Assembly (NCBI GenBank): GCA_944324255.1
Contig: CALUVM010000007.1
Span: 1 to 64,000, forward strand
DNA from: Candidatus Gastranaerophilales bacterium
Lineage (GTDB): Bacteria > Cyanobacteriota > Vampirovibrionia > Gastranaerophilales > Gastranaerophilaceae
DNA: 64,000 bases
Direction: 5' to 3'
Below the pieces are notes generated by a model. That model worked only from the letters and a program-made list of their open reading frames with translations, had not been told where the DNA came from and did no database searches. Below are positions 43,754-47,702 of the stretch, piece after piece. A program made the position numbers and the translations under genes. Each line of letters opens with the position of its first letter. The stretch's first letter is position 1.

Positions 43754-45247
43754 TTACGAGTAAACAAACGGCGGTCCGTTTTTAATCTCAAACAGAATAT
43801 TATCAGCCATTATTTTTAGTTCCTCCGGAGATTTACCGTTTTCTTTCTGCTTCATAAATTCGTCACACAACGGCTCAACATAAGACTCTTTTTTAGCCTT
43901 AAAATTTCTCAATTCTGTTGATACAAGCCTTTTTTGAAGATTAAGTTCAATATCTGCCGAGTATTTTTTTACCTGTACTTCTTTAACTGCTTCTGCCAGA
44001 GCTTTCCCTCCGTAGGCTAATGCTGAAACTCCCGCAATTCCGAAAAACAGATTTTTAAACTGAGGATTCTTAGGATTCATAAGCCAGTCATAGAAGAAAG
44101 ATAAATAATCATTAACATGAGAAAAATAAGTTATCTTATTCCTGCCTGAGCCGCCAATTGCACTGTTAACTTTTTCTGTTGCCTGATTCATATAGGATTT
44201 AAGATATTTTGTAAATTCTTCTTTTTCTTTGGCTGACAGGTTCATTTTGTTTACGTATCCTTCAATCTCAGAAGGCTTTGCGTAAATAGATTCAAGCATA
44301 TTCTCAATAACATGTTTATAGGCTTCTTTACCGGTCAGAGTTTTTCCTTCATGGTTCTGTACCGGTGCGATATCTTTACCTTCATTAAAAGCTTTGATGA
44401 TATTCTCAAGTCCTGCTTTTGTATTTTCTATCCCCTTTTTTAAGAACTCTTCACTCTTTCTTATGTTTTTCATAGAAAAATACCCGAGTCCGAGTATCAT
44501 TCCAAGAGTTAGAACTCCAAGCCCGACGAGCGGAAGCAGCATTCCTGAGGCAGATTTGTTCTCTTTTTCTTTACCTTTAAAGCTCATGTTATCAAGCTCT
44601 GTAGCAAAGAGTTTTGCTTTAGAGGAGAGCATACTCCTTATTATCTGGTTTTTACCTGAAAAAGACTGGGTTTCTACTGCAATTAGATTTTCTTGCAAAT
44701 TCTTTTGGATATCTGCTTCCCGTCTTTTAACCCAAACCTCTTTGAACCCGTCAATGAAAATCTTGCCCATAAATGCCATAGCACCAAGTGTTATAACCCC
44801 TAAAGATGCCAGAATGGTTTTCCTGTTCGGAGATTGAATCATGCTGAATATGCTCTGATGAACTTCGTCGTTTATGCAGTGGTTCCTTGTAATTCCCGGA
44901 AGCAAGTACTCTTTTGTAGATTCCAGCCTGTTTTTTGAAAAACTTTTTACCATATATGTAAATCCGCCCAATAACGCCATAACTCCAGTTGTAGCTGCGC
45001 ATATTGGAAGAAGTGCCGTATTTTTCTTTTCTTCTTTTTCAAAGACTTTTTTAGGTAAATCAATTTGTGTATCTGAAATTACCAGAGTATCTAACGTTTC
45101 ATCCAGTGAAAGCAGAGGATCTTTGACAAAAGCATTGACTATTTTGCCTTCCTTGTTGTTATTTGTATTTCGCCGTTGTGTATCAGTCATATTGCGCTTC
45201 ATACGCCTTGATTCAGCATCATTATCTATCTTCGGTACTGCGTTCAT
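43754..45247 (-). CDS. Unknown membrane protein with an internal duplication, riboswitch operon gene 2
   Basis: A 497-aa protein with four main hydrophobic segments (about residues 77-97, 135-153, 232-255 and 402-420). A unit of about 55 residues is repeated: FKEVWVKRREADIQKNLQ in the first half and VKEVQVKKYSADIELNLQ in the second, each following a membrane helix. No family is recognised. Its start lies 26 bases inside the preceding gene, so translation is coupled. Both genes should be controlled by the cobalamin riboswitch at 45971-46079, which hints at a role tied to B12. Confidence 0.68.
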   Translation of the reverse strand: MNAVPKIDNDAESRRMKRNMTDTQRRNTNNNKEGKIVNAFVKDPLLSLDETLDTLVISDTQIDLPKKVFEKEEKKNTALLPICAATTGVMALLGGFTYMVKSFSKNRLESTKEYLLPGITRNHCINDEVHQSIFSMIQSPNRKTILASLGVITLGAMAFMGKIFIDGFKEVWVKRREADIQKNLQENLIAVETQSFSGKNQIIRSMLSSKAKLFATELDNMSFKGKEKENKSASGMLLPLVGLGVLTLGMILGLGYFSMKNIRKSEEFLKKGIENTKAGLENIIKAFNEGKDIAPVQNHEGKTLTGKEAYKHVIENMLESIYAKPSEIEGYVNKMNLSAKEKEEFTKYLKSYMNQATEKVNSAIGGSGRNKITYFSHVNDYLSFFYDWLMNPKNPQFKNLFFGIAGVSALAYGGKALAEAVKEVQVKKYSADIELNLQKRLVSTELRNFKAKKESYVEPLCDEFMKQKENGKSPEELKIMADNILFEIKNGPPFVYS

Positions 45248-45914
45248 CTTTTTTCTTCTTTCGTCTTAATTTGTGTAGAATGGTTTTTAGGTTGAAAATC
45301 TTTTTATCATCATCAATTTTTGTGTCTTCATCATCTGTATTATTGCGTTTAAATACTTTAAATAACCCTTCAAATTTCGATTTTACCGTACTTATCAGTT
45401 CTGAAACCTTCTTTTCTATAAAGTTTTTTACTTCTCCGAATACGGCGGTTAATTTGTCAGTTATATCCGCCAAACGCTCTTTTATAACCGTAAATCTTTC
45501 GGCTGTATTTGCAATTACGAGAGGAAGATTTCTTATAAAATTGATAACCGGAATTCCGATATTTTTTATTACAAATGCTATTGGTTTTAAAAGTATATTG
45601 TTAGAAATCCTCTGTGTAAATTGAAGCATACTCTCAGAAAGTTTTGCCATTGTACTTTCAAAATTCTTTATAGCTTCCAGATGTTTTTCAAGATTCTGTT
45701 CGTGAGCTTCAATTCTATGTTCTCTTGCCCTCATCATTGCACCTATCATTGCACACTGATGATAACTCATTTCTCCCGGCTTTTGAGGTCTTTCTCCAAC
45801 TCTGCCCCCTCCGCCTCCGCCCATTTTTGAGCATACAGGACAAGCCCCCGGTGCTAATCCGTGAGGACAAGTTCCTGCGTTAACTTTGTTTACGTTTTGA
45901 ACAGAATTCGACAA
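45222..45914 (-). CDS. Unknown Cys-motif protein, riboswitch operon gene 1
   Basis: A 230-aa protein. The N-terminal CPHGLAPGACPVC motif (about 15-27) looks like a small metal site and is followed by a Gly run. A long helical region comes next, with a hydrophobic part at about 100-130, and then a very basic tail (RRKKKKDER). The start is a TTG at 45914 with AAAGGGA about 9 bases upstream; no ATG with a site is available. It is the first gene after the cobalamin riboswitch. I cannot assign a function; it does not resemble B12 transport or synthesis proteins I know. Confidence 0.68.
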   Translation of the reverse strand: MSNSVQNVNKVNAGTCPHGLAPGACPVCSKMGGGGGGRVGERPQKPGEMSYHQCAMIGAMMRAREHRIEAHEQNLEKHLEAIKNFESTMAKLSESMLQFTQRISNNILLKPIAFVIKNIGIPVINFIRNLPLVIANTAERFTVIKERLADITDKLTAVFGEVKNFIEKKVSELISTVKSKFEGLFKVFKRNNTDDEDTKIDDDKKIFNLKTILHKLRRKKKKDERSTEDR

Positions 45915-45970
45915 TACTAAATTCCCTTTGTTATTGCCGCTTCACCCTATTATTCCAACCCCGAATGACT

Positions 45971-46079
45971 AACAATACCTTGTCCCGAGGTATTGTTTAA
46001 AAGAAAGGTATTCCGGCTATAACGGCTGCGGCACAGTCACGGATTCTCACCGTAGTTTCCCTGTATTAAGTTTCTTTTA
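45971..46079 (-). promoter_or_regulatory. Cobalamin riboswitch
   Basis: The minus strand carries the conserved core: ACAGGGAAAC, then CGGTGAGAATCCG, then ACTGTGCCGCAGCC and AGCCGGAATACC. Arms TAAAAGAAA (46071-46079) and TTTCTTTTA (45998-46006) close it as P1. A hairpin AACAATACC / GGTATTGTT (45971-45997) follows directly; its loop TCGGGACAA can pair with TGTGCCG of the core at six of seven positions, as in the kissing loop of this class. The gene start is 57 bases downstream. No terminator is seen there, so translational control is more likely. Confidence 0.85.
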
Positions 46080-46107
46080 TCGTAAAATAACGTGAAAAAA
46101 TAGTCAA
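46079..46107 (-). promoter_or_regulatory. Candidate promoter of the riboswitch RNA
   Basis: TTGACT (46102-46107), a 17-base spacer and TACGAT (46079-46084), minus strand. Its -10 box touches the 5' arm of the riboswitch P1, so either P1 is shorter in the RNA or the start lies further upstream. Confidence 0.5.
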
Positions 46108-46256: not shown

Positions 46257-47702
46257 CTAGCCGGAGAATGTTTTGTATGAAGATTCAATGTTATCATCAA
46301 TTACTTTAGAAACTGCTTCAATTTCTGTTGTAATCTGTGTTCTTTCGTTATCCAATCTTTGAAGTTTTAATTCAAGGTTTCTGTCTTCCTGTTGGATAAT
46401 TTCAGTCTTAGCATTGATTTCTTGTTGAGCTTTATCATATTCATACTGGGCGTATTCATATTCAGCGTATGCATCTTGATAAGCTAACTCATCTGTAACC
46501 GTTGCTGCTTCAAGGGCAATTTCGGTATATCCGATAATATTTCCTTCTGAATCAGTGTTTGGTACTGACATAGAAGTTATTCTTCCTGAAGTATCGAATG
46601 TTAGTTCACATCCTTCAATACTTTCTGTATAAGTGTATGAACCATTCGGGATATATTCATAGACCAAAGCTCTGTCATCTGAACCTTGAACATCTTCTGT
46701 CAATGCAAAGTACGGGATTGTTTTCCCTGATTCAGAAGTTGTAAAGTATACCATAACTCCGCTAAGGTCAAAATCTTCACCGAATGTATTGCGGATGGCT
46801 GATTCATAACCGCTCCAACCGATATCTGCAAACTGATCCATTTTGCGAGCTTCTTCAAATGTATATGCAACTTCACCGCTGATAAGATAAGAGTTCGGGT
46901 TTGGATTCGGAATGTTTTCTGAACCGTTATCACTTCTTACAAAGTAATTAGTGTTTGGTTTTAACTGGAATCCTCCGTCAACTTTTGTAAAATCACTTTC
47001 AGTTGCTGCTCTCCATTTGCCGCCATCTTCAACATAGTAATTAGCGATAGAAGAAATTGTATTGTATACTCTTTCATCCGGAGCTTTTTCTACAGCAGTG
47101 TTTATATCTTCCTGATATTCATCAGTGTCATTATTCAATCTGTAATATGTCTTGCCTTCTTCATATGATTCAGCTCTTACAAAACGACCTGTAGCGTCAT
47201 CTTTAGTATAGTATTCGGCTTCATCAAAATTTTCAGCAGTAACAGCAGGGTTTTGAACCATAAATCTGTCGCCTTGTTCATAAGTTTTTTGTACATATGC
47301 ATCTACAGGCTGAAGAGTTGAAACTTCATCTGGTTCGTTCAATATTGTACCTGTTAATTCTGCTCCCGGTTTAGAAACGATAGCTGAACCATATCTTTGT
47401 GAAAGAGCTTCACCGGCTCTGGTAATTTGTTTTTCAATAATATAGCTTTGACCGTCAGCAGAAGGTTTAACTGAACCAAGTGTAAAGTTATTTGCACCAT
47501 CTGAGCCGGAGTACTGTACTGTAGTAAAGTCATTAGTTGATGGAGGTGTCGGAACTTCCATTGCTAACAAACTGTTATATAAGGATGTACTCTGTTGAGA
47601 AAGAACAGTTCTTTCCTGGTTAATTTGTTGTCCCTGATACTCTACATTTGATTGTCTTGCAATCAATCCTAAATACCTTGCTTGTGATGCTGACATACCC
47701 AT
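46257..47702 (-). CDS. Possible flagellar-type axial protein with coiled-coil ends
   Basis: A 481-aa protein without a signal peptide. The N-terminus MGMSASQARYLGLIARQSNVE runs into a heptad-like helix (to about 50). A variable beta-rich middle contains repeated Y-x-x-G-x-x-Y/F patterns (YVQKTYEQGDRFMV, RAESYEEGKTYYRL). The C-terminus from about 405 is again a long helix (EINAKTEIIQQEDRNLELKL). Helical ends around a variable core are the layout of flagellin and hook-associated proteins. A sigma-28 promoter drives it. The axial role is inference; homologs with similar starts are, to my knowledge, common in this lineage. Confidence 0.65.
   Translation of the reverse strand: MGMSASQARYLGLIARQSNVEYQGQQINQERTVLSQQSTSLYNSLLAMEVPTPPSTNDFTTVQYSGSDGANNFTLGSVKPSADGQSYIIEKQITRAGEALSQRYGSAIVSKPGAELTGTILNEPDEVSTLQPVDAYVQKTYEQGDRFMVQNPAVTAENFDEAEYYTKDDATGRFVRAESYEEGKTYYRLNNDTDEYQEDINTAVEKAPDERVYNTISSIANYYVEDGGKWRAATESDFTKVDGGFQLKPNTNYFVRSDNGSENIPNPNPNSYLISGEVAYTFEEARKMDQFADIGWSGYESAIRNTFGEDFDLSGVMVYFTTSESGKTIPYFALTEDVQGSDDRALVYEYIPNGSYTYTESIEGCELTFDTSGRITSMSVPNTDSEGNIIGYTEIALEAATVTDELAYQDAYAEYEYAQYEYDKAQQEINAKTEIIQQEDRNLELKLQRLDNERTQITTEIEAVSKVIDDNIESSYKTFSG

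Follow-up and report, generated by a model that had tools for sequence, protein, structure and literature searches.

A class-II cobalamin riboswitch precedes an order-specific membrane module in the Gastranaerophilales

Cobalamin riboswitches normally control genes for B12 synthesis, for B12 or cobalt transport, or for isozymes of B12-dependent enzymes (PMC3766115). In the btuB and env8 riboswitches, a kissing loop is known to drive closure of the ribosome-binding site, and the kissing loop of env8 has been reported to contain a mismatch and a bulge (PMC10653944). A class-II switch also precedes ppe2, a gene of uncertain function, and the signature cited for class IIb combines GGAA in J3/4 with UCU in J6/3 (PMC11260477). 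Here, a riboswitch of this kind is described in a window of 64,000 nucleotides (the whole stretch of DNA that was analyzed) from a genome of the order Gastranaerophilales. Members of this order are gut-dwelling relatives of cyanobacteria. The genome of the window is referred to as G000 and its genus as g1; f1 is a family label.

The aptamer lies on the minus strand at 45998..46079. It was matched over the full Rfam model of the AdoCbl-II class (RF01689, model positions 1-81) and scored 52.3 bits, above the cut-off of 36.5 (E 7.7e-10 in the 64-kb window). A tRNA was the sole further Rfam match in the window, and G000 (1.89 Mb, 99% complete) carries the AdoCbl-II element as a single copy. The first-pass annotation had proposed a cobalamin riboswitch from three B12 core strings, a closing stem and a following hairpin. 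The three strings were found on the minus strand, the closing stem (TAAAAG / CTTTTA) is present with 6 bp and can be extended to 7, and the assignment to the cobalamin class was borne out by the Rfam score, above threshold, and by conservation in relatives. Within the genus, P4 and P6 covary among 42 aptamers, with changes on both sides of a pair in 44 cells vs 12.3 after shuffling. The covariation value of these aptamers was 0.258 vs 0.061 in shuffles; none of the 500 shuffles was as high, and slid controls were far lower. The P5 stem is invariant in the same 42 sequences, and pairwise identity in g1 is 72% for the aptamer vs 27% for the leader spacer. The g1 aptamers retain the conserved core and are among the top scores of the order (52.3 bits in G000, 51.4 bits in G084). 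A chance match is excluded by score, conservation and covariation. The switch has a GGAA-like J3/4, and its J6/3 reads AAUACU, AAUGCU, AACACU or AAUACC in most copies; with UCU absent from J6/3, the GGAA-like J3/4 does not place it in the AdoCbl-selective class IIb. The AdoCbl-II name leaves the form of the ligand unfixed, be it adenosyl-, hydroxo- or methylcobalamin.

A consensus scan placed a sigma-70-like promoter of the leader (TTGACT-17-TACGAT) at 46079..46107 on the minus strand. Its -35/-10 pair scores 9/12, and 1.2 such pairs are expected by chance. Several relatives have similar boxes of the form TTGACA...TAnnAT at the corresponding position, as judged by eye; an automatic tally of positions was scattered. 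Because the candidate promoter (46107-46079) overlaps the 5' arm of the closing stem, this arm may be untranscribed: if the promoter is used, the arm may lie upstream of the transcript start. The aptamer is followed by the P13 hairpin (45971..45997, minus strand), a perfect 10-bp stem with the loop CGGGACA and a predicted fold energy of -9.8 kcal/mol. The first reading had described a loop able to pair with the core, and pairing of L13 (CGGGAC) with the L5 loop GUGCCG (46029..46034, minus strand) is indeed possible at 5 of 6 positions, the sixth being a G.G mismatch. Across relatives, the mean L5-L13 pairing score of 3.85 was higher than in all 200 loop shuffles (mean 3.51), a comparison that is biased by the preselection of hairpins for CG in the loop.

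The Shine-Dalgarno-like sequence AAAGGGAA of the first gene, P1, lies at 45922..45929 (minus strand), 7 nt before the TTG start at 45914. In the nrdD and btuB leaders of the order, L13 is close to the Shine-Dalgarno; in P1 leaders the spacer from P13 to the start codon is longer than in these, and variable. The Shine-Dalgarno was paired upstream in the platform fold of 76 of 92 P1 leaders vs 65.5 (sd 4.0) when shuffled, which is a modest excess. The predicted fold of the window leader showed no Shine-Dalgarno sequestration, and setting the aptamer aside made the site more accessible than it was when the whole leader was folded. Another arrangement, in which AGAGGA of the aptamer would mimic the Shine-Dalgarno and an anti-Shine-Dalgarno UCCUCU would switch partners, is visible in some genera but was rejected, as it reached p <= 0.05 in only 7 of 76 leaders and is absent in the window.

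Only two genes follow the switch in the window, as first described, since the gene after the second, P2, is convergent. P1 (45222..45914, minus strand) encodes 230 aa from a TTG codon, the most frequent start choice in related P1 loci, and carries a CPHG-x5-CPxC motif and Cys54 followed by long amphipathic helices. The Cys/His motif CPHGLAPGACPVC by which P1 had been singled out is present. Across 44 homologues the residues C16, P17, H18, G19, C25, P26, C28 and C54 are invariant, and this conservation suggests a metal site. P2 (43754..45247, minus strand) encodes a membrane protein of 497 aa with four hydrophobic segments and a duplicated half. The internal duplication claimed for it is real (blastp E 3.9e-10 between the halves, profile-profile probability 97%). 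The end of P1 and the start of P2 share 26 bp, a feature that the first-pass annotation had missed. A short [IVL][ST]FKG-like motif occurs in the middle region of P2 and recurs in several hypothetical proteins specific to the order (neighbours in L255 and L256), close to their N-terminus or linker; it may be a sorting signal. When the starts of the window ORFs were briefly scanned with a strict pattern, none was found.

The two proteins had been judged unlike known B12 families, and no relatives were returned by Pfam, NCBIfam or the PDB. In Pfam and NCBIfam, nothing matched P1 or P2 above cut-off, and TonB receptor and FecCD domains, as in known B12 uptake genes, are absent from their Pfam matches at this level. 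The low-E PDB profile matches of both were mostly to designed or coiled-coil helices, and both AlphaFold models are weak (mean pLDDT about 62). A known fold for P2 was rejected, given no Foldseek match at E <= 0.001 and a low-confidence model. Against PHROG, P1 gave weak helix-like matches only. An origin from phage or other mobile DNA was discarded, as phage DNA gave no match. Sampling across the phylum yielded P2 in the order and, beyond it, one marginal partial match only. Its named relatives in the genome collection are labelled as Candidatus Gastranaerophilales, Melainabacteria, cyanobacterium and uncultured or unspecific bacterial MAGs, besides a few entries that evidently carry a wrong label.

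The riboswitch and this gene pair were shown to occur together throughout the order. Among 192 genomes, P1 was found in 175 and the riboswitch in 177. A lineage-specific covariance model detected the riboswitch in 99 of 99 sources, including all 79 loci that had been fetched by P2 alone, so the expectation that the same switch would stand before homologues in relatives has been confirmed. The Cys codon of the CPHG motif follows the riboswitch at a median of 138 nt in 98 of the 99 sources. P2 follows P1 in every locus examined, and the switch stands just before P1 in 104 of 105 loci inspected. Six extra P1 loci, some from genomes seemingly without the switch, were checked and five proved to have it. 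The sole switch-less P1-P2 locus is that of G126 (L257); there, P1 is preceded at 30 bp by another gene. G126 is also the only tested genome with the MetH cap domain. The copy in G112 was called as RF00174 instead of RF01689. The tie between riboswitch and P1-P2 is ancient and order-wide.

In most of the order, the pair is part of a larger unit. Of 20 diverse loci, 15 have a third gene, P3, after P2, and the genes around the unit differ; the two-gene unit of the first-pass annotation holds for the window, and a three-gene module P1-P2-P3 replaces it in most of the order. P3 had no match above curated cut-offs and none in the PDB below E 0.4, and a MetE, NrdD or other enzyme domain was found above curated cut-offs in none of P1, P2 and P3. 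In g1, P3 has moved away from P1-P2 and adjoins a prepilin peptidase gene and a gene for a sigma-70-type factor, an arrangement that G188, G186 and further members of the genus share. In G000 it lies on contig 1 (16588-16995 by search; ORF at L245 6589-6999), in a cluster of sigma-70-type factor, prepilin peptidase and P3 (L245 6589-8764) that is kept in further g1 genomes. The relocated g1 locus carries no riboswitch of its own before P3. Most P1-less genomes tested also lack P3; the exceptions are G134, in which a fragment carries P2 and P3, and G011, with a partial P3 and no P1 match. In genus g17, P1-P2 is present and P3 absent. A protein family starting MGM(A/S)ASQAR (window 46257-47702, minus strand; L248, L258, L260) recurs in these genomes, often near P1-P2-P3.

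Further copies of the switch in the order precede nrdD-nrdG, btuB-btuC-btuD, metE and a gene for a B12-binding radical-SAM protein; metE, nrdG and btuD were identified from sequence without a family search. These targets fit the described classes of the cobalamin regulon, transport and isozymes. Since sister copies of the riboswitch control these genes, P1-P2-P3 can be placed in the B12 regulon, and regulation of the module by the riboswitch is well supported. In L176 and L177, nrdDG and P1-P2 are divergently oriented, with one switch-like element for each. The element on the nrdD side (L176 2771-2901, L177 2623-2751, minus strand) has an insert in P6; it was detected by the lineage model and lies below the Rfam gathering score. 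In G004 (L087 2318-3988), an AdoCbl-II riboswitch precedes a gene for a porin of the OprB type, which is likewise an unusual target.

The B12 inventory covered 53 chosen genomes, and its counts are descriptive because this set is enriched for P1-less genomes and phylogenetically clustered. Absences rest on family searches that covered NrdJ, BtuR/CobA, FecCD, the MetH cap domain, QueG, PduO and the B12-binding domain. Above cut-off, NrdJ was found in 31 of 53 genomes and BtuR/CobA in 32, nearly the same ones; FecCD was found in 8, the MetH cap domain in 1, and QueG and PduO-type adenosyltransferase in none. In most of the genomes with NrdJ, there are two genes of the BtuR/CobA type. The module as a supplier of B12 to QueG was rejected, as none of the genomes tested has QueG above cut-off. 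In f1, 21 tested genomes have NrdJ and no FecCD above cut-off, and the module is present in 20 of them. Because most NrdJ-carrying genomes tested are without a FecCD permease, the module is a concrete candidate for B12 acquisition. G102, G004 and G019 are NrdJ-positive and have neither module nor FecCD, and the module stands alongside btuBCD-type genes in G033, G173, G007 and G013. It is kept in genera without NrdJ and BtuR/CobA (g1, g3, g15, g17 and g20), and its losses were seen mostly in NrdJ-less genomes. G000 and four other g1 genomes have no NrdJ, MetH cap, QueG, BtuR/CobA, PduO or FecCD above cut-off. It is puzzling that a B12 sensor is kept under selection in a genus that lacks the B12 enzymes, adenosyltransferases and importer tested. 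Four B12-binding-domain matches were found in G000, two of them above cut-off and at least two in radical-SAM proteins, so corrinoid may still be used there.

The reading preferred here, with a probability of about 0.38, is that an OFF-type class-II switch acts on the P1-P2 operon and that P1, P2 and P3 form an envelope module acquiring or handling corrinoid. Corrinoid binding would lock the L5-L13 kissing loop and P13, which would favour a closed ribosome-binding site and lower translation of P1-P2. As the corrinoid-bound switch would lower translation, the P1-P2 proteins would be made under corrinoid scarcity. We infer the OFF direction of the window copy from the behaviour of its class, given the open Shine-Dalgarno in the window's own predicted fold; published work on class-II and btuB switches favours OFF control of translation by way of the kissing loop. 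P2 would sit in the inner membrane and P1 would be a soluble partner that binds metal or corrin, with P3 supplied from a separate locus in g1. The first-pass annotation had offered uptake, storage or replacement of a B12 enzyme as possible roles; acquisition or handling of corrinoid is a tentative first choice, favoured because the regulon otherwise consists of uptake and backup genes, because P2 is a membrane protein and because the module accompanies NrdJ in all but one of the FecCD-less f1 genomes tested. Against this role, no transporter or corrinoid-binding fold was found in the module proteins, G102, G004 and G019 have NrdJ with neither module nor FecCD, four genomes combine the module with btuBCD-type genes, and the need for corrinoid is unclear in the genera that retain the module without NrdJ and BtuR/CobA. 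A more specific form appears rather doubtful: a novel system unrelated to BtuBCD that supplies the Gastranaerophilales with B12, is shut by its own switch and serves only B12-binding radical-SAM proteins in g1-like genera.

Could the module instead be a B12-independent backup for the job of a B12-dependent protein? This is unlikely. The same riboswitch controls the backups nrdDG and metE, and nrdDG is the divergent neighbour of P1-P2 in two loci. However, none of P1, P2 and P3 looks like an enzyme, their distribution is not matched by that of any B12-dependent counterpart, and g1 keeps the module with NrdJ, the MetH cap domain and QueG undetected. It is likewise improbable that corrinoid is a mere habitat or nutrient cue by which the switch tunes an envelope process that does not use B12, such as pilus formation, secretion or surface assembly. 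The prepilin peptidase and sigma-factor genes beside P3 in the g1 genomes viewed would suit such a role, as would strong conservation of the switch in genera where B12 metabolism is scant or absent. Yet the order's other switch targets are classical B12 genes, the module is lost mostly where NrdJ is missing, and pilus genes do not adjoin P1-P2 itself. Last, the blank B12 inventory of G000 could mean that the g1 aptamer senses another ligand or is a fading relic of lost B12 metabolism, which is very improbable, since g1 aptamers covary strongly with compensatory changes, exceed the spacer in identity and keep core and top-range scores, and proteins that combine a B12-binding with a radical-SAM domain persist in G000.

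The switch and its module can be compared with three known systems. Riboswitch-controlled nrdDG and metE, which encode B12-independent isozymes, share the switch class, and nrdDG in some loci directly adjoins P1-P2, whereas P1-P2-P3 has no enzyme domain. The btuB-btuC-btuD operons share switch class, order and membrane-protein targets, presumably for B12 uptake; in contrast, similarity to TonB receptors or to FecCD permeases is not detectable in P1, P2 or P3, and G000 has no FecCD match. With the AdoCbl-II class at large (RF01689; env8, M. tuberculosis ppe2), the window switch shares a compact aptamer without P8-P12, a GGAA-type J3/4, and L5 with a following P13. It differs in its AAUAC-like J6/3, in the long and variable leader from P13 to the start codon and in its target, an order-specific membrane module. 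Like that of env8, its putative kissing loop holds a mismatch, and like the switch of ppe2, it precedes a gene without assigned function. Across an order of gut bacteria, the commonest target of the cobalamin switch is an undescribed membrane module.
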